Shown: positions 18,852 through 26,829, counted from the first letter of the stretch. The stretch is 45,911 nt of DNA from Candidatus Moraniibacteriota bacterium (GCA_018061645.1 JAGOTT010000009.1:1-45911); one strand, 5' to 3'. A program made the numbers and translations. The notes: generated by a model from the sequence alone, not told the origin.

Positions 18852-19817
18852 ATGCAGGTTTCACCGAGGAAAGCCGTCGAACTGACATTATTGTTTTTTG
18901 CACTCGGATTTTCTTCGCTCGGATTCGCTTCCGTCGCGTCTTCCGTCTCGGCGGATGACGGGCGGTGGGGCGTGTCTTTGCTGTGGTTCTCGCTCCTCTC
19001 GATCTGCTTCCTGTCGGCCGGCGTTCTCTACCGGAAACGTTCCATGAGCGTGACCTTCATCGTCTGCTCAATCGGACCGAGTCTTTTCTTCGCGTTTACG
19101 TTCGCGCATCTCTTTCTTGTCGCGCTCTCCGTTCTTCTCATGTCGGTCGGATTTCGGAAAATAGGGGACGATATCCGCTCAAGACTCTTGATCTCGTTCC
19201 GGAGAAGCATGGGCGTTGGCGCGTTTTTTTTCGCGCTTCCTTTATCCTTGCTGATCGCGAGCCAATATTATATGGAGATACGATCGGATTCTTGGCAGGA
19301 TCTCGTGCCGCGGTTCTCTCTCGCCGAAGGGAGCGGCGATCTGATTCTTCGCGCCGCCGGGAGCATTTCTCCGGAAATCGGAAAAATCAGGGACGAGCGG
19401 ATGACGGTCGATTCGTTTCTCTCTACCGTGCGAGGAACAGGCGGATATTCCGGAGACGGTATGGATGCATTCATGGATGATGTGGTCGCGTCGCTTTCGC
19501 TTGAGGCGGGGAGGATGGAACTCGGGGAACTTGTCGGGCGCGACCTTTCGGGAGATGAACGCATGGCCGATGTGCTTTCGGAAGCCCTGCGGAACAAGAC
19601 GATCGCCTTTCTTTCCGGCGCGAAGGCGGAGCGGAACCTCCCGAACGGCGCACTGCCCTTTTTCCTCGCGCTCCTCCTCTTCATCACGATTCTTTCGCTG
19701 GCGTCGCTCCTCCGGGGCATCTGGGTCCTGCTCGCGTCCTGGTTCATCCGGCTCCTTATCCGTTCCGGCGCGCTCTCTATCGAAAAAGTCCCTGCCGAAC
19801 AGGAAACCCTGCACTGA
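18852..19817 (+). CDS. Multi-pass membrane protein, unknown function
   Basis: I do not recognise this 321-residue protein. It has a block of about four to five hydrophobic segments in the first 140 residues, a soluble helical middle part (about 145-260, with regularly spaced Glu and Asp) and one or two segments near the C-terminus (about 265-300). The middle part probably faces the outside if the N-terminus is inside. It follows mltG closely and ends 19 nt before the first DGR target. Its stop codon lies just before that target's promoter. Confidence 0.65.
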   Translation: MQVSPRKAVELTLLFFALGFSSLGFASVASSVSADDGRWGVSLLWFSLLSICFLSAGVLYRKRSMSVTFIVCSIGPSLFFAFTFAHLFLVALSVLLMSVGFRKIGDDIRSRLLISFRRSMGVGAFFFALPLSLLIASQYYMEIRSDSWQDLVPRFSLAEGSGDLILRAAGSISPEIGKIRDERMTVDSFLSTVRGTGGYSGDGMDAFMDDVVASLSLEAGRMELGELVGRDLSGDERMADVLSEALRNKTIAFLSGAKAERNLPNGALPFFLALLLFITILSLASLLRGIWVLLASWFIRLLIRSGALSIEKVPAEQETLH

Positions 19818-19821
19818 TTCA

Positions 19822-19830
19822 TGCTATACT
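19822..19830 (+). promoter_or_regulatory. Extended -10 promoter of DGR target 1 (leaderless)
   Basis: TGC followed by TATACT (19825-19830) ends 6 nt before ATG 19837, so transcription should begin at or near the start codon. No Shine-Dalgarno sequence is present. DGR target 2 has the same arrangement with the same spacing. Confidence 0.6.
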
Positions 19831-19836
19831 TCCCTC

Positions 19837-20760
19837 ATGCCTGAATCCTTCCCCATCCCGCAACCAAAGCAAGAACAAGTCCCGTCTCCCTTCGAGATGT
19901 GGCTTGAAACGGAGTTTCCGAAACAATACGAATCTCGAGCGAAAACGCTCGACCGTCTCGGTCTCCTTCGCATCCTTCCCGAATCAGGAATGTATGGAAT
20001 CGTCGATGTTCTCGGGAAGGAATGTTCGTTTCCGGAGATGGAGGATATCAAGGCGAAACTGCTCGAGAACAGGGAATTCTTCGAAAAGAAAGGTGATCAG
20101 GGATTCACGAGACTCGCTATCACTCCCTTCGGAATTCCGACCGCACGTCTCTTCGACACGATGAAGAAAGCCATCCTCAAACATAAGAAAGAAGGAACGC
20201 TTCTTTCCACGAACGGGGATCCGCTCGATCTCGATGAAAACGACCCCTTGTATACCTGGGACGGATACGAGAACCAGGAGATCTCGTATTTCCCCGAATC
20301 ATTCGACCAAGCGAGTCACGGAGGAAAAACAAAGGAGCAGATACTCGAAGAAGAACAACCCTTCCCCGGGTTCCTCGTCTCCTTCATCGAAGAAGACCTC
20401 GAGATCCCAAGACAAGGACAAGAAGAAACGAGGAGCGGGCGGACACGGATCGGAACGAACAAGACTCCGAAAGAATATCTGGAGCTTCTGAAACAGGAAC
20501 CATACCGAGGAGAGTCCGGCACCACCATCGAAGAGTGGACGACCCTCTTCCTCACCACGCTCGAGGAAGAAAACAAAGTCATCGACGACTACGGAAACAA
20601 GAAAAGCTCCGTCAACTGGAACCTTGGGACGTATTTTCCGGCCGGCGGGAGTGTCTCTTGCGCGAACTGGAATCGTGACGGCCGTCGGGTGAGCGTGGAC
20701 TGGGACGATGCGAGGGGTCGGGGCGAGAACGGCGGTTCTCGCGTCGCGGTGAGGGTGTGA
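19837..20760 (+). CDS. DGR variable target protein 1 (C-type-lectin-like C-terminus)
   Basis: This 307-residue protein is the first target of the retroelement. Its last 39 residues are encoded by the variable repeat at 20640-20755 (from about residue 269). The region preceding it, NWNLGTYFPAGG, and the end GGSRVAVRV fit the CLec/FGE-type fold that displays diversified residues in DGR targets. Residues 1-200 are highly charged, contain KALDRLGLL-like KTLDRLGLLRILPESG and HKKEGTLL, and match no family I know. There is no signal peptide or membrane segment, so a cytosolic location is likely. It is homologous end to end with the protein at 25820-26746. The start is supported by the leaderless promoter; the longer open frame overlaps the preceding gene. 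Confidence 0.85.
   Translation: MPESFPIPQPKQEQVPSPFEMWLETEFPKQYESRAKTLDRLGLLRILPESGMYGIVDVLGKECSFPEMEDIKAKLLENREFFEKKGDQGFTRLAITPFGIPTARLFDTMKKAILKHKKEGTLLSTNGDPLDLDENDPLYTWDGYENQEISYFPESFDQASHGGKTKEQILEEEQPFPGFLVSFIEEDLEIPRQGQEETRSGRTRIGTNKTPKEYLELLKQEPYRGESGTTIEEWTTLFLTTLEEENKVIDDYGNKKSSVNWNLGTYFPAGGSVSCANWNRDGRRVSVDWDDARGRGENGGSRVAVRV
20640..20755 (+). repeat. DGR variable repeat VR1
   Basis: This 116-nt segment aligns without gaps to the template at 21191-21306. Counted by eye there are 17 differences; 16 are at template adenines (15 A to G, 1 A to T) and one is C to T. The 3' block TCTCGCGTCGCGGTGAG is unchanged and would serve as the initiation-of-mutagenic-homology site. The stop codon of the target follows 2 nt after the repeat. 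Confidence 0.92.
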
Positions 20761-20813
20761 GATTTCGAAATTTGTTTCTTGTCTTTTCTTTCTCCTTTTT
20801 CTTTTTTTCTTCT

Positions 20814-20903
20814 GTCATTGCGAGCAAAGCGAAGCAATCCAGGGTTTTCCGGCTCACGAATCCATGGATTGCCACATCCTCGCAGATTCGGATTCGCAAT
20901 GAC
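20814..20903. repeat. GTCATTGCGA palindromic element (MITE-like)
   Basis: GTCATTGCGA (20814-20823) and TCGCAATGAC (20894-20903) are perfect inverted ends. A nested pair, GCAATCCA (20834-20841) and TGGATTGC (20865-20872), is also perfect. This matches a type of small palindromic repeat common in diverse bacterial genomes. It lies between VR1 and the template repeat, in a gap that holds no gene. Confidence 0.75.
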
Positions 20904-20963
20904 GAGAGCGTGCGGTGAGAAGCCACCTCCCATCTGAAGATGCGGGGCTGCCGCACATTGCTT

Positions 20964-21021
20964 CTGTCTAGACAGGCGCTTTACCCCGGGCTCCGCATGC
21001 GGAGCCCGGAAGCGTGGACAG
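20964..21021 (+). other. Strong hairpin in the DGR leader upstream of the template
   Basis: A 24-nt perfect palindrome at 20986-21009 (arms CCGGGCTCCG and CGGAGCCCGG, loop CATG) is extended by CGCTT (20977-20981) with AAGCG (21010-21014) and by CTGTC (20964-20968) with GACAG (21017-21021). It may fold at the 5' end of the template RNA or end transcription from target 1; no T-run follows. Confidence 0.55.
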
Positions 21022-21071
21022 ACCCAGCCATCGCGATTGACCTTGGCGGGTACGCAAGAAAATACATACAC

Positions 21072-21120
21072 CCTCACGAATGAGGAAAATGCATCCCTTA
21101 CCACGGAATAGTGAGGGATG
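21072..21120 (+). other. Two short hairpins just upstream of the DGR template
   Basis: CCTCA-CGAA-TGAGG (21072-21085) and CATCCCTTA with TGAGGGATG (21092-21120, one G-T pair) sit in tandem 70 nt before the template repeat. They are candidates for structured parts of the template RNA. The plus-strand frame through them is open but not protein-like. Confidence 0.45.
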
Positions 21121-21190
21121 AAACAGGCAAGCCAATGTATCCGATCGCTACCGTGGTTCCGATCGGGAAACGGACGCATTTTCTCATTAT

Positions 21191-21306
21191 GGCCGACGGG
21201 AATGTCTCTTGCGCGAACTGGAATCGTGACAACCGTCAGGCGAACGTGAACAGGAACGATGCGAGGAATCGGAACGAGAACAACGGTTCTCGCGTCGCGG
21301 TGAGAG
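21191..21306 (+). repeat. DGR template repeat (TR)
   Basis: The 116-nt template has 31 adenines by my count and eleven AAY codons when read in the target frame, as expected for a template built to diversify at AAY. It shares ungapped homology with VR1 (20640-20755) and VR2 (25825-25940). Homology to both begins at GGCCG(A)CGGG and ends at GTGAGAG, where TR diverges from the shared VR end GTGAGGG. TR lies in the same orientation as VR1 and the reverse transcriptase. No clear promoter was found; a TTGACC at 21037 is the best -35-like match. Confidence 0.92.
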
Positions 21307-21307
21307 C

Positions 21308-21649
21308 CTATGTATTGAGACTCCTGAGCCAGCCGCCCTGCATCCGTCCGATCTCGGCGAGCTTGGCTTGGGTCTGGAAAATCCGCGTCTCATTCGCGAG
21401 CTTGAGCTCGAGGAGGAGACGGAGCTTGAAGGCGGTCACCTCGAGGTGACTTCCGGCGCGGATGAGATAGCCGGATTTCATTGGTTTCGGGGCATTTTTC
21501 GCCATGATGAGTTCTTGGAGAAGCGCGAGTATCGACGATTCGAGGCTCTCGCCGAGCGAGTAGCGGAACCGCTTCTCGATATGACCGTTTGTTTCGACGG
21601 CGAATTTGTAGACTTCATACGTTCTGTTTATGATCGGCAATGTGTCCAT
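21308..21649 (-). CDS. avd: Avd-like accessory protein of the DGR (four-helix bundle)
   Basis: This 113-residue protein resembles the bAvd/S23-type four-helix proteins of DGRs, which bind the reverse transcriptase and template RNA and are needed for mutagenic retrohoming. Supporting segments are LPIINRTYEVYKFAVE (helix 1), FRYSLGESLESSILALLQEL (helix 2), IRAGSHLEVTAFKLRLLLEL (helix 3) and ETRIFQTQAKLAEIGRMQGG with the family end GGWLRSL (helix 4). Unusually it is on the minus strand. Its stop codon lies 1 nt beyond the template repeat and its start overlaps the 5' end of the reverse transcriptase frame by 20 nt. The DGR RNA spacer downstream of the template is therefore antisense to this gene. 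Confidence 0.82.
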   Translation of the reverse strand: MDTLPIINRTYEVYKFAVETNGHIEKRFRYSLGESLESSILALLQELIMAKNAPKPMKSGYLIRAGSHLEVTAFKLRLLLELKLANETRIFQTQAKLAEIGRMQGGWLRSLNT

Positions 21650-22121
21650 AGACGTAAGTGTGGAAAATATATGGAAGTGCTGGTTTCTCTTCCGGAAGGG
21701 GAAGAGATCGTCATGTGATATCGATGCGTTCGAGCGTTCTCTTGAGATGAATCTTTCGTCGCTCCATGCCGATATCGCGAACGGTCGCTACCGGCACGGC
21801 GGATATCGTTCGTTCATCGTGTCCGATAACAAGAAACGGGAGATTTCCGTAGCAAGCGTCCGAGACCGGGTCGTGCACCGACTGCTGTACGAATATCTCG
21901 TTCCGATCTATGACCAGACGTTCATCTTCGATGTCTGGTCGTATCGGAAAGAGAAGGGTCTCCTTGGTGCGATCGAACGGACGGAACATTTTTTCTCACG
22001 ATACCCGCGTTCGTTCGTTTGGCGCGCGGATGTGCGGAAGTTCTTCGATAATGTGGATCATCGGATACTGCTCGGGTTGTTGCGGAAGAAAGTATGGAAA
22101 ATTGATCAAAATTTTTTTCTG

Positions 22122-22199
22122 TGTCATTCCGAGCGAGTCCTCGAGTCGAGGAATCTGCCTTTTCATGCTGGAGATTCCTCGGCTATGCTCGGGATGACA
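22122..22199. repeat. TGTCATTCC palindromic element inside the reverse transcriptase
   Basis: TGTCATTCC (22122-22130) and GGGATGACA (22191-22199) are the ends, with one mismatch; internal AGGAATCT and GAGATTCCT also pair. At 78 nt it keeps the reading frame and translates as CHSERVLESRNLPF and so on. Elements with these ends are widespread intergenic palindromes, so this one looks inserted into the gene. Confidence 0.75.
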
Positions 22200-22260
22200 G
22201 AGATGGGACGAGCGACGACACTTCTCGAAGAGGTGATCGGGAGCTATCACGCATCGAATC

Positions 22261-22277
22261 GAGAGAGAGAGAGAGAG
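22261..22277. repeat. (GA)8G microsatellite in the reverse transcriptase
   Basis: Seventeen bases of alternating GA mark the frame change of the reverse transcriptase. Such tracts are prone to replication slippage. Nine or six GA units would restore one continuous frame; eight do not. Confidence 0.8.
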
Positions 22278-22717
22278 TACGGAGGCACGTCAAAAAGGCA
22301 TTCCGATCGGCAATCTGACGAGCCAGATTTTCGCCAATATCTATCTGAATGAGTTGGATCGGTTCGTGAAGCATGTGCTGAAGCCGAAAGTATATCTTCG
22401 CTACGGGGATGATTTCTTTATCATAACAGACGACCGGGAAACGGCAGTCGCCTTTCGTGAACGGATTACCCTTTTTCTTCTCCGTGAGCTTCGGCTGGAA
22501 ATCAACCCGAAGCATGATATACTGATTCCAGTGAAGAAGGGGCTTCGGTTTCTCGGTGTGGAGATTTTTCCGGGCGGACGGAGAATGAACAAGAGGAATC
22601 GGAAACGCATCATTCGGAATCTCGATCGGAAGAATATCGCGAGCTATCGGGGACTCGTCGCGAAGCACGAGAAAAAGAAGCGGATAAAGTTTTTCGATTG
22701 GACGGTACTTGATCGAT

Positions 22718-25700
22718 ATGATGAATTTTGAACGGCGGATAGGAAATATCGTCGGGAGTGCGCGGCGACAGGAGGCGCCGAAAGCGGTTCCCTTCGAGGG
22801 GCGTGCGGCGGTTTCGGCGCGAGCGGATCTGCGGAAGCGCGGACAGGAATTCCGCGTGCGCGTGCTCAATATGGAACGGCCGAAAGACGCATCGTCGGAG
22901 GAATACGACCGGAGCCTCGGGCTCGTCTTCCGCGAATCGAAAGGGGAGGCGGCGCTTGATCTGAATACTTCGTCTCTGGAGGATTTTGAACATGAGGCGG
23001 AGCGGTTCCGGGGACTGGCGGAGGCGAAGCGGGACGTTTTCCCGAGGTACGCCGCGTTTCTTTCGGCGCGAGCGGCGAAATGTGCCGAAGCGACGGGCGC
23101 GGATACCGCTCCGGATATCGTTTCCGCGGGAGCGTGTCTTGATACGATCCGCGACATCGACCCGAACACGCCGGCGAATCTCCTGCCGGATGCGATGATT
23201 CTTGGCTTGCGTGCGCGTGAAGCGTTGCGACTTCCGATGCCGGACATGAAAGCGGTCACGGAGGCCGCCCTCGACGACCCGTCGCTTCTCGTCGATTACG
23301 CGCTCGCGCTTGCGGAAAGCGACCGGAATGATTTTCTGGATCTCCTTCCGGAGGAGAAGCGCCGCGCGGTGTCCGTCGCGCTCGACGCGTCGGTTTCGCG
23401 CGTGCTCCACCAGTCGATCGTCGAGAAGGGGAGTGACGAGGAGGGGCAGCGATCCCGCGTCCGGCTTCGTCTCTATAACGGACTCCGCGAAACGCTTGAA
23501 CGCGGCGGAGCGGACGAAAAGGCGATCGCAAAGATCCTTGCGGAATCCATCGGTTCGCTCGGTGAGGATACGCGGCAGCTTCTTCTTGAGATTCTCCGCG
23601 ACGAATATGAGGCGGAGAATGATGATGCGGAAGAAGGGCAAGCCGATCATGCGCCACGCGTGATGAAAGTGTTCCTCGACCATTTCGATGATTTCCGGGG
23701 GAATGATATCGCGCTCCAGGTTGCCGGAAGCGCGGAGACGAATCGGCACCTCTCGATATTCATCCTCGGGAAGCTCATCAAAAACGGGTATCTTTCACCG
23801 GAGGTGAAACAGTGGTGGAGCGAGGAAAAAGCGGTGAAGGGGAAGGGACTCGATACGGAAAAGGCGCGGCTTGAAGTCATCAAGCGGACGATATCCGATC
23901 TCGGTGTCGTGCCGAGTCGGGAGATCCTTTCATTCCTTGCCGATGATCGGCAGTGGGAAGGGGTGACGCTCGAGGAGCGCATCGCGAAAATCCGCTCGAG
24001 CCAGGAGGAATTCTCCGGCATCACGGACAATCACGAGCTTGCGGCGGTGCTTTCGCAGGATGAACGAAAGGCGATGGTCTACTATCTCCTCCACGGAGGA
24101 GACGACCGGTTCAACCTCATCAACAGCTACGGGTTCGGAAAATTCAAGGAGATGGTCGGACTCATGAACGACCTGACGATCCACGAGCAGCCGATGCGGG
24201 TCTTTGAAAAGACGCTTCTCTCCGGTGGGATATCGGAAGATGCCGCGAAGATGATCGCGGATCGTCTCCGTTCGGGGCATCATCCGATCGGTGGCGCGCA
24301 GAGGCACGTCGACGTGAGTTTCGATGTGAGCGAGAACGCACTCGTGAAGAATGCCAATCTCGAGATCGGTCGCGTGCTCGGTCGGGAGCAGCTCGGCATC
24401 GCCATGCTTTTCCCGATGTATCGGGAATTCCTGGAGAGCGAGGCGGACGGGATGGGTGGGGAGGCGCTTGAGCGTATGAAGGGTGCGGATACGCTTGCCG
24501 ACCGGCTTGTGCTTCTCGGGGAAATCGAAACAGCGTATCCCGATTTCCGTTCACGTGCGATCGCGGAGCTTTCGGAAAATTGGCGTGCGTTCGGTGAGAA
24601 GATGATTCTTGAATTCCCGCTCGAGCAGGTGTTCGGTGAGCGGAGCGTTCCAGTGCGCGGGGAAGAGCTGCTTCCCCGGCTCGATACGAAGCGCGTGGAT
24701 TTGAAACGCATGAAGAAGGATCTTCTCGTGATCCTTCGGGGCGGGGATAAGAAACTCGCTGCGCTTCAGCGCGACATCCAGAAGAAACGGAAGGCGCGCG
24801 CGAATCTGCTCTCGGGGCTCGATCGGCAGGAGGATGGCCCGGGACGTGACGCACTTCAGGAAAAAATCCGCGGTGTCGAGGCGGAGCTTCGCGTCCTTGA
24901 AGCCGAGAAGGCGGCGCTCGGCGACCGAAAATCGGTCGATCGGTTCGCGCACATGAGCGAAGAGGAGCGGAAGGCGGAAGTCGAACGGATCGGGAGCGAG
25001 ATCCTCGCGCTCACCGAGAAGTCGCCGAGCGCGATCTTCACCTATATCACGATGCAGGTTTTGGGCGAAGATCGCCTCCGCGAGAGCGATATCGCACTCG
25101 TGCAGGAGATCGAGAGCCATCTTCAAGGACCGTTCCAGGCGATCGCCGACGCCGCGGCGTATCGGAAACCGCTTGCGGACAAGACTGAAAAGAAACGTAT
25201 GCGGGTAAGGCTCGAGTATCTCGACAAGACGGACCGGTTCATGAACATGGTGCGGTTCGCGGACAGCAAGATCTGCTGTTTCTCGAGCAGTAACTACGAG
25301 CAGACGATCCAGCACGGAACCCAAAACAAATATTGGGTCGCGTCCATCAATGCCGACCCGCTCTCGTTCGTCATCTCGATAGAGTCACCTCAGGAAGAGA
25401 CCGAGGACGCCGCTCATGCGAAACGACCGACGCCGAAAGAGAATCTCGGATTCATCTTCGGGAGCTTCGGGGCGGACGAGGAAGGAAAGCCGGCGATTCT
25501 TCTCAATGGTATCTACTACGCACCGGGGCTCGAGGACAAGGCGCAGATGGAGTCGATGCTTTCCGGCGTCGAGCGGATATTCGACGGACTGCCGATTCGA
25601 ACGGTCGCCCTTGCGGGGCGGTATGGCGGGTCTTTCGGTGAGAACGCGGTTCCGGATGGGTATTCGAAAGACGCCGTGCGGCTCACGCGGCTCCGTGCGC

Positions 25701-25819
25701 TCGACGACGGACAGGGCGATCCGGAGACCAAAGTTTACGACGACCTCGCGACGGGGGAGGATCTCAATCGTCCGCATTGGTATGGCGGGGACGATGTGAT
25801 CTGGCACAAGACCAAATGA
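22718..25819 (+). CDS. Large soluble protein of unknown function inside the DGR cassette
   Basis: I do not recognise this 1033-residue protein. It is hydrophilic without a signal peptide or membrane segment. Residues 1-650 are mostly helical and charged. A strongly coiled-coil-like stretch (about 660-770) contains LAALQRDIQKKRKARANLL and VEAELRVLEAEKAALGDR. A more globular C-terminal domain (about 840-1030) contains FADSKICCFSSSNYEQ, ENLGFIFGSFGADEEGKPAI and IRTVALAGRYGGSFGENA. ATG 22718 overlaps the reverse transcriptase stop by 14 nt, suggesting coupling, and its own stop directly abuts the stop of target 2. The position between reverse transcriptase and target suggests a DGR-linked role or cargo; this is inference only. 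Confidence 0.8.
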   Translation: MMNFERRIGNIVGSARRQEAPKAVPFEGRAAVSARADLRKRGQEFRVRVLNMERPKDASSEEYDRSLGLVFRESKGEAALDLNTSSLEDFEHEAERFRGLAEAKRDVFPRYAAFLSARAAKCAEATGADTAPDIVSAGACLDTIRDIDPNTPANLLPDAMILGLRAREALRLPMPDMKAVTEAALDDPSLLVDYALALAESDRNDFLDLLPEEKRRAVSVALDASVSRVLHQSIVEKGSDEEGQRSRVRLRLYNGLRETLERGGADEKAIAKILAESIGSLGEDTRQLLLEILRDEYEAENDDAEEGQADHAPRVMKVFLDHFDDFRGNDIALQVAGSAETNRHLSIFILGKLIKNGYLSPEVKQWWSEEKAVKGKGLDTEKARLEVIKRTISDLGVVPSREILSFLADDRQWEGVTLEERIAKIRSSQEEFSGITDNHELAAVLSQDERKAMVYYLLHGGDDRFNLINSYGFGKFKEMVGLMNDLTIHEQPMRVFEKTLLSGGISEDAAKMIADRLRSGHHPIGGAQRHVDVSFDVSENALVKNANLEIGRVLGREQLGIAMLFPMYREFLESEADGMGGEALERMKGADTLADRLVLLGEIETAYPDFRSRAIAELSENWRAFGEKMILEFPLEQVFGERSVPVRGEELLPRLDTKRVDLKRMKKDLLVILRGGDKKLAALQRDIQKKRKARANLLSGLDRQEDGPGRDALQEKIRGVEAELRVLEAEKAALGDRKSVDRFAHMSEEERKAEVERIGSEILALTEKSPSAIFTYITMQVLGEDRLRESDIALVQEIESHLQGPFQAIADAAAYRKPLADKTEKKRMRVRLEYLDKTDRFMNMVRFADSKICCFSSSNYEQTIQHGTQNKYWVASINADPLSFVISIESPQEETEDAAHAKRPTPKENLGFIFGSFGADEEGKPAILLNGIYYAPGLEDKAQMESMLSGVERIFDGLPIRTVALAGRYGGSFGENAVPDGYSKDAVRLTRLRALDDGQGDPETKVYDDLATGEDLNRPHWYGGDDVIWHKTK

Positions 25820-25824
25820 TCACA
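25795..25824 (-). other. Hairpin abutting the 3' end of VR2
   Basis: TGTGATC (25795-25801) and GATCACA (25818-25824) pair perfectly; inner TGG (25802-25804) and CCA (25812-25814) extend the stem around a CACAAGA loop with a 3-nt bulge. It begins exactly where VR2 homology ends. In the Bordetella phage DGR a hairpin a few bases after VR promotes retrohoming, so an analogous role is possible. Confidence 0.45.
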
Positions 25825-26746
25825 CCCTCACCGCGACGCGAGAACCGTCATTCCCGCCCCGATCCCTCGCACCGTACCTGCTCACGTACGCCCGACGGTA
25901 GCCGCGACGCCAGCTCGCGCAAGAGACATACCCGTCGGCCGGGAAGTATGTCCCGAGGTTCCAGCAGATGGAATCCTTGCCGTTTCCGTAGTCGTCGGTG
26001 ACTTGGTTTGTTTCCTCGAGATTGGTGAGGAAGAGCGTCGCCCACTCTTCGATGGTGAGCCCTGATTCTCCCTGATACTGGGGATTCTCTTTCAGAAGTT
26101 TCAGATACTGGAGCGGCGTCTTGTTCGTCTCGATCCGTTTCCGTCCACCCTTCGTTTCTCCTCGGCCTTCCCGTGGGATATCGAGGTTGTCCTCGAGAAA
26201 CGAGACGAGGAACCCGGGGAAGGATTGGGTTCCTTCGAGCATCTGTTGTTTGGTTTTTCCATTGTGGTCCGTCCGGTCGAAGGATTCCGGGAAGCACGAG
26301 ATCTCCTGGTTCTCGTATCCCTCCCAGGTATACAGAGGATCGTTCAGGTCGAGATCGAGCGGTTTCCCGTCCGTGTCGAGAAGTGTTCCTTCTTTCTTGT
26401 GCTTGAGGATAGCTTTCTTCATCGTGTCGAAAAGACGTGCGGTCGGAAGTCCGAAGGGAGCGATCGAGAGTCTCGTGAATCCCTGTTCCGCCTTTTTTTC
26501 GAAGAATTCCCTGTTTTCAAAAAGCTTCTTCTTCACATCTTCCATCTCCGGAAAGGGACACTCCTTCCCGAGGGTATCGACGATGCCATATGTCCCCGAT
26601 TCGGGGAGGATACGGAGGAGACCGAGACGATCAAGGGTCTTGGCTCTCTGCTCGTATTGTTTCGGAAACTCGGTTTCAAGCCACGTCTCGAAGGGAGAGG
26701 GGGCGTGTTCGTGTATTTGTTGTGGGGTTGGGAAGGATTCGGGCAT
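25820..26746 (-). CDS. DGR variable target protein 2 (C-type-lectin-like C-terminus)
   Basis: This 308-residue protein is homologous to target 1 along its full length: both start MPESFP, share KTLDRLGLLRILPESG and DTMKKAILKHKKEGTLL, and end GSRVAVRV. VR2 encodes the region from about residue 270. Diversified positions that are Asn in the template appear here as Tyr, Ser, Arg, Gly or Asp, for example GYRRAYVSRYGARDRG. There is no signal peptide. The gene is inverted relative to the rest of the cassette. It converges stop-to-stop with the 1033-residue gene and diverges from dnaJ. Its promoter is a leaderless extended -10 beside a CIRCE-like operator. Function of the conserved N-terminal 200 residues is unknown. 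Confidence 0.85.
   Translation of the reverse strand: MPESFPTPQQIHEHAPSPFETWLETEFPKQYEQRAKTLDRLGLLRILPESGTYGIVDTLGKECPFPEMEDVKKKLFENREFFEKKAEQGFTRLSIAPFGLPTARLFDTMKKAILKHKKEGTLLDTDGKPLDLDLNDPLYTWEGYENQEISCFPESFDRTDHNGKTKQQMLEGTQSFPGFLVSFLEDNLDIPREGRGETKGGRKRIETNKTPLQYLKLLKENPQYQGESGLTIEEWATLFLTNLEETNQVTDDYGNGKDSICWNLGTYFPADGYVSCASWRRGYRRAYVSRYGARDRGGNDGSRVAVRV
25825..25940 (-). repeat. DGR variable repeat VR2
   Basis: Read on the minus strand, this 116-nt segment aligns without gaps to the template. Counted by eye there are 19 differences: 17 at template adenines (12 A to G, 4 A to T, 1 A to C), one T to C and one C to T. The invariant 3' block and the following GTGTGA stop context match VR1. 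VR2 lies about 4.5 kb from the template and in the opposite orientation. Confidence 0.92.
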
Positions 26747-26752
26747 GGGGGG

Positions 26753-26780
26753 AGTATAGCATGATTTTGATCATTTGCAA
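26753..26780 (-). promoter_or_regulatory. Promoter of DGR target 2 (leaderless)
   Basis: On the minus strand TTGCAA (26775-26780) precedes TGC-TATACT (TATACT at 26753-26758) with a 16-bp spacer. The -10 ends 6 nt before the ATG at 26746, as for target 1. The -35 directly touches the left arm of the CIRCE-like repeat. Confidence 0.55.
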
Positions 26781-26807
26781 TTGGCACTCTTGATCGAAGA
26801 TTGCCAA
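26781..26807. promoter_or_regulatory. CIRCE-like operator (HrcA site) between DGR target 2 and dnaJ
   Basis: TTGGCACTC (26781-26789), exactly 9 nt, then GATTGCCAA (26799-26807). The consensus CIRCE is TTAGCACTC-N9-GAGTGCTAA; the arms match at 8 of 9 and 7 of 9 positions with the correct spacer. The right arm overlaps the dnaJ -35 and the left arm abuts the -35 of target 2. Confidence 0.65.
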
Positions 26808-26829
26808 TTTTTTCATTGTACGGTAGAAT
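26801..26829 (+). promoter_or_regulatory. dnaJ promoter
   Basis: TTGCCA (26801-26806), a 17-bp spacer and TAGAAT (26824-26829). The -35 lies inside the CIRCE-like right arm, so a repressor bound there would block transcription. Confidence 0.65.

Follow-up and report, generated by a model that had tools for sequence, protein, structure and literature searches.

Frame-shifting repeat tracts in Patescibacteria diversity-generating retroelements: a probable random switch for a targeted mutator

To our knowledge, the regulation of diversity-generating retroelements (DGRs) is poorly understood. About one seventh of the DGRs in the DiGReF survey carry several variable repeats (VRs), and the same study read frameshifted and interrupted reverse transcriptases (RTs) as recent inactivations, contingency loci being named there just as another route to diversity (PMC3521204). 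The DGRs of Patescibacteria/CPR (clade 2 of Roux et al. 2021, PMC8144416), as far as the searched passages of that paper describe them, resemble the locus studied here in RT family, in adenine-directed variation between template repeat (TR) and VR, and in targets without a recognisable domain, and their gene order VR-TR-avd-RT recurs in its relatives. Phylum and similarity suggest that the locus belongs to this clade.

The DGR described here was found in a window of 45,911 nt from a Candidatus Moraniibacteriota bacterium (GCA_018061645.1, JAGOTT010000009.1). As in the multi-VR DGRs of the earlier survey (PMC3521204), one TR is accompanied by two VRs in paralogous targets, but here the targets are inverted copies at both ends of a cassette that two congeners lack. 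Two-VR DGRs being already known, the locus in itself is a new DGR with two targets that is well supported but ordinary. A more interesting outcome appears to be that Patescibacteria DGRs as a group are, with a probability of about 0.8, phase-variable mutators in which targeted hypermutation is switched on and off at random by repeat tracts within the RT gene or at the avd/RT 5′ ends.

The cassette and its adenine-directed repeats

The cassette spans ~6.9-7 kb (19818-26750), is bounded by the two targets and is ordered target 1 (+), TR (+), Avd (-), RT (+), 1036-aa gene (+), target 2 (-). Apart from the RT, its features are as follows:

19837-20760, + strand: ORF of target protein 1, 307 aa, with VR1 coding for its C-terminus
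20640-20755, + strand: VR1, variable repeat of 116 nt, gap-free alignment with TR
21191-21306, + strand: TR, template repeat of 116 nt with 31 A
21285-21304, + strand: GC-rich IMH-like 3′ block GGTTCTCGCGTCGCGGTGAG, invariant and common to TR, VR1 and VR2
21308-21649, - strand: Avd, 113 aa, PF22296 bAvd, antisense to the TR-RT strand
22709-25819, + strand: 1036-aa protein with no family match, between RT and target 2
25820-26746, - strand: ORF of target protein 2, 308 aa, with VR2 coding for its C-terminus
25825-25940, - strand: VR2, variable repeat of 116 nt, gap-free alignment with TR

An earlier note on this DNA had described one 116-nt template, two gap-free variable repeats of equal length and a shared GC-rich 3′ block, and re-alignment agrees with it on all of these. 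TR and VR1 differ at 17 positions, of which 16 are TR adenines (15 A->G, 1 A->T), and TR and VR2 at 19, including 17 TR adenines, so that the counts made by eye are reproduced; with 31 adenines in 116 nt, the hypergeometric p values for this bias are 2.5e-10 and 3.3e-10, respectively. Instead of an even spread over the four bases, which the note had held to be incompatible with its reading, the differences are strongly concentrated at adenines. Three non-adenine differences (one in VR1, two in VR2) nevertheless mean that the variation is not strictly adenine-only, as had been claimed. In the target frame, 30 of the 31 TR adenines fall at codon positions 1-2, and 11 of the 38 TR codons are AAY.

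Outside the VR, the two target genes are 80.1% identical, a value that falls to 77.3% in the 150 nt directly upstream of it. VR1 and VR2 agree with each other at 82 of 85 non-adenine TR positions but at only 12 of 31 adenine positions. Agreement concentrated at non-adenine positions, together with diverged flanks, argues that both VRs were copied from TR long after the genes had diverged and were mutated separately; the note had likewise proposed independent rewriting. The sequence comparison supports a DGR with two paralogous targets whose VRs have been rewritten independently, and with adenine-biased TR/VR pairs, Avd and a DGR-type RT in place, the identification as a DGR stands. No VR beyond these two was found in the 1.0-Mb genome.

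Both repeats encode the C-terminal end of homologous proteins, as expected, the VRs lying at the 3′ ends of ORFs whose products share 75% amino acid identity. A C-type-lectin-like end of the targets, also proposed earlier, was not confirmed: the target model is confident (pLDDT 93), and searches of PDB and BFVD with its fold gave no significant match, the weak top matches being EgtB/OvoA. Neither the target proteins nor the 1036-aa protein matched a family in Pfam, NCBIfam or PDB. Homologues of the latter (~40-46% identity) lie directly 3′ of the DGR RT in L046, L051 and L245, and the protein is perhaps a DGR partner. At least four genomes, the window's included, have a gene of this type directly after their DGR RT, in L051 with two further target paralogues behind it.

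Avd matches the profile PF22296 bAvd above cut-off (E=4e-10) and the DGR Avd profile NF033474 below its curated cut-off (E=6e-15). Its 5′ end overlaps that of the RT by 20 nt, and avd is antisense and adjacent to the RT in 202 of 224 RT loci, the typical arrangement for the clade. Rfam found no RNA family over the cassette. A TGCTATACT box, possibly a promoter with a very short leader, stands ~10 nt upstream of the start codon of both targets (19815-19840; 26742-26772, minus strand).

Within the genus, the DGR cassette was found in one of three species, that of the window. In both congeners (G001, G002) the gene for a 321-aa protein and dnaJ adjoin, ~105 nt apart and with no DGR between them, so the cassette is present or absent at a precise site. 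A CIRCE-like inverted repeat (TTGGCACTC...TTGCCAA) precedes dnaJ at 26780-26815 and is kept in both congeners (L387, L388).

The split reverse transcriptase and its GA tract

The earlier note had placed an RT and an Avd-like gene between the targets. Both are there, but the RT is split over two frames in the assembly and shares the interval with the 1036-aa gene; the split and its (GA)n tract had been missed. The RT features are the following:

21630-22352, + strand: RT N-terminal half, reading frame 1, motifs up to and including FVWRADV
22110-22205, + strand: dispersed palindromic REP/MITE-like element, in frame in the RT, adding ~28 aa
22240-22731, + strand: RT C-terminal half, reading frame 2, with GIPIGNLTSQ and YGDD
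22261-22277, + strand: (GA)8.5 tract, open in both RT frames, putative site of slipped-strand switching

The gene adjoins TR and has the motifs of a DGR-type RT, namely the SQ of motif 4 (GIPIGNLTSQ) and YGDD. Its profile finds as best solved match 8ub7 (E=8e-60; PDB title 'Reverse transcriptase'), which we take to be the BPP-1 DGR RT. The two halves, running from 21630 to ~22270 and over ~22258-22731, sit in different frames, and both are stop-free over the (GA)8.5 tract, which lies between motif 3 and motif 4; in a pattern search (GA)8 had no second copy in the 1.0-Mb genome. The assembled allele with its 8.5 units is best read as OFF. Since it is OFF, this copy may be inactive at present, and the adenine pattern in the VRs would be a record of past retrohoming only.

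It is likely that the window holds a two-target DGR with its RT as a contingency locus, (GA)n slippage shifting the C-terminal half in and out of frame. The chief competing explanation, which we regard as unlikely, is that this DGR is dead: the palindromic insertion and a frameshift would have disabled the RT, the GA tract would be an incidental slip site, and the VRs would testify to former activity. The RT does contain the element and its frame is broken, and DGRs that lost activity recently but kept TR/VR intact have been described (PMC3521204). The element is 85-95 nt long, has 17 matches in its own genome, folds into a hairpin of -49 kcal/mol, is translated inside the RT as CHSERVLESRNLPFHAGDSSAMLGMTEMG and is absent from related RTs. 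An insertion of ~28 aa might leave the RT inactive even with the tract in frame, and there is a real chance that the copy in the window is dead for this reason. Against decay, however, both RT halves are stop-free, the insertion preserves the frame, and only 3 non-adenine changes are present in 232 VR positions. In the nearest relatives, L245 and L070, the RT is likewise broken at a GA tract in the same position, and in the even sample described below 16 of 17 split RTs, among the matches listed, break at the tract, a pattern not to be expected from random decay. In L058, similar DNA of palindromic or REP-like type lies close to avd/RT, and in L250 it lies within the RT loop.

Repeat tracts in Patescibacteria DGRs

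Related RTs were collected from genome contigs, the window's relatives, the phylum at large (an even sample of 380 genomes) and phage contigs. Tracts were sought in the RT and 150 nt upstream, with thresholds of 9 nt for poly-G/C, 11 nt for dinucleotides, 14 for 4-nt units and 15 for 5-nt units, so that shorter ones such as (AG)5 in L070 are uncounted; genome-wide counts were made by pattern searches. Adenine-biased TR/VR pairs accompany 177 of 224 non-redundant Patescibacteria RT loci, which identifies these loci as DGRs. A frame-shifting tract (poly-G/C, di-, tetra- or pentanucleotide) was found in 137 of the 224 (61%), the remaining 39% having none at these thresholds, and tracts with 3- or 6-nt units in none. 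In the even sample the figure is 83 of 124 loci (67%) among the matches listed, which are the better-scoring ones, weak or short RTs being missing. Examples are (AC)13.5 in L048, (AGCC)12 in L052, (CAGT)18 in L053 and (CA)17.5 in L068. L052 and L053, whose tetranucleotide tracts measure 49 and 71 nt, belong to the Saccharibacteria, a group with some strains in culture.

General microsatellite richness was considered as a source of the tracts and rejected: RT regions hold 139 tracts in 252 kb and the flanks 19 in 1,209 kb, which makes the RT regions 35 times richer, and poly-G and GA tracts of whole genomes are largely at the DGR. In the 20 genomes with poly-G tracts at the DGR, a hand count placed 24 of the 52 poly-G runs of 9 nt or more there. 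Nor are the tracts a trait of all DGRs, only 1 of 65 phage-contig DGRs having one (Fisher p=1e-20 against Patescibacteria); this sole case, (AGAC)24.5 in L126, has the RT closest to that of the window. Many GA tracts follow a small hairpin ending in AATCGAGAG (L239, L246, L248, L249), as if the tract had been brought in by a small mobile element.

Two properties of contingency genes were found. A frame-shifting unit exceeds background, (GA)8.5 being unique in its genome and the family showing the 35-fold enrichment, and relatives differ in frame: among RTs with a common (AC)n site and conserved flanks, tracts of 15-28 nt are in frame in two cases (27 and 23 nt) and out of frame in four (28, 21, 20 and 15 nt). 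L252 and L289 are further relatives with differing tract lengths, the variation being between species and not within one. Internal tracts of the even sample are in frame in 6 cases and out in 16, among the matches listed, which fits the 1/3 expected from free variation. These figures are less biased than the wider set of internal alleles (16 ON, 16 OFF), for which split RTs were fetched deliberately. Overall, ~30% of tract alleles are in frame and ~70% out, the in-frame share being what chance predicts.

The divergent genes avd and RT overlap at their 5′ ends, and this is where N-terminal tracts lie; 29 of 98 such loci have Avd in frame, again ~1/3. In loci where avd and RT must both start beyond the tract, the two are in frame together in 12 cases and out of frame together in 28, with mixed states in 7 (p=8e-6); this excess of joint states suggests that a single tract moves both genes.

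An error of assembly or sequencing in tract length, with an RT intact in the cell, is a very unlikely source of these frame states. Repeats are the commonest site of such errors, the window's genome is a draft of 26 contigs, and draft assemblies may miscount long tracts. The 17-nt tract of the window is, however, well within a short read, out-of-frame tracts recur in many unrelated assemblies, and a (GA)n, (AC)n, poly-G or 4-5-nt tract, enriched 35-fold in this conserved gene, would stay hypermutable even if its length were miscounted.

Less likely still is a role of the tracts in RNA or protein, as priming site, flexible linker or programmed frameshifting signal, instead of as a switch. In its favour, the loop encoded by the tract in the L053 RT is modelled by AlphaFold with low confidence (pLDDT <50 at residues 182-193) and is probably flexible; this repeat-coded loop is 28 aa long in L053, against ~4 residues at that place in 8ub7. 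Unit, length and position of the tract vary between relatives, however, the 3- or 6-nt units that a linker would favour are lacking, ~70% of alleles are out of frame, and N-terminal tracts lie in the 5′ end of avd, where they move Avd and RT together.

A switch agrees with the low-confidence loop of L053, which is much shorter in 8ub7, and with the selection seen beyond the tracts. Between two out-of-frame alleles, dN/dS beyond the tract is ~0.07 (L237/L367) and ~0.11 (L238/L373), many other pairs being saturated at synonymous sites and without a usable ratio; judged by these values, purifying selection acts on the sequence 3′ of the tract even when both alleles compared are OFF. On a FastTree phylogeny of 223 RTs, in which many inner branches are weakly supported, tract type changes at least 57 times. 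Because tracts arose or changed type so often, stochastic shut-off of the retroelement mutator appears to be under selection.

The proposed switch and known systems

Briefly, the mechanism would run as follows. An RT-Avd complex, by analogy with the family, would copy TR with errors at adenines, and the mutated cDNA would replace VR1 or VR2 at the 3′ end of the respective target gene, the two targets being paralogous. Slipped-strand mispairing in (GA)n, between RT motifs 3 and 4, would alter the repeat number and put the C-terminal half, including the catalytic YGDD, in or out of frame, while in other loci a single tract at the overlapping avd/RT 5′ ends would move both genes. Bouts of target diversification would then alternate with stable inheritance of the chosen VR allele. 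Reversible switching in cells is what we infer from the tract, the split frames, the uniqueness of the tract in the genome and the phylum-wide recurrence of tracts in DGR RT and Avd genes.

Good variants would be lost if the mutator were permanently on. Should the reading be true, a hypermutable tract within the mutator would provide a random switch between exploring and keeping for cells without room for complex regulation. VR diversity in a metagenome would then be predicted to follow the share of tracts that are in frame, and many database DGR RTs that look 'broken' would be OFF alleles and not pseudogenes.

In BPP-1, avd is on the same strand as the RT. The bRT-Avd of BPP-1 (8ub7), the best solved match of the window's RT profile, shares its Avd family with the window, where avd is antisense to the RT. 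Tracts in RT or avd and out-of-frame alleles are absent from the searched passages of PMC8144416, and repeat tracts as a DGR switch occur neither in PMC3521204 nor in the searched passages of PMC8144416, PMC10053308 and PMC10907252; a search of the open-access literature found no published phase variation or slipped-strand switching of DGRs. The closest parallel is with the SSR contingency loci of Neisseria, Campylobacter and Haemophilus, which likewise have frame-shifting tracts inside genes or at their 5′ end and near-random frame states between relatives. Known SSR contingency loci mostly affect surface structures or DNA methyltransferases, whereas in Patescibacteria DGRs the gene that would be switched is itself a targeted mutator.
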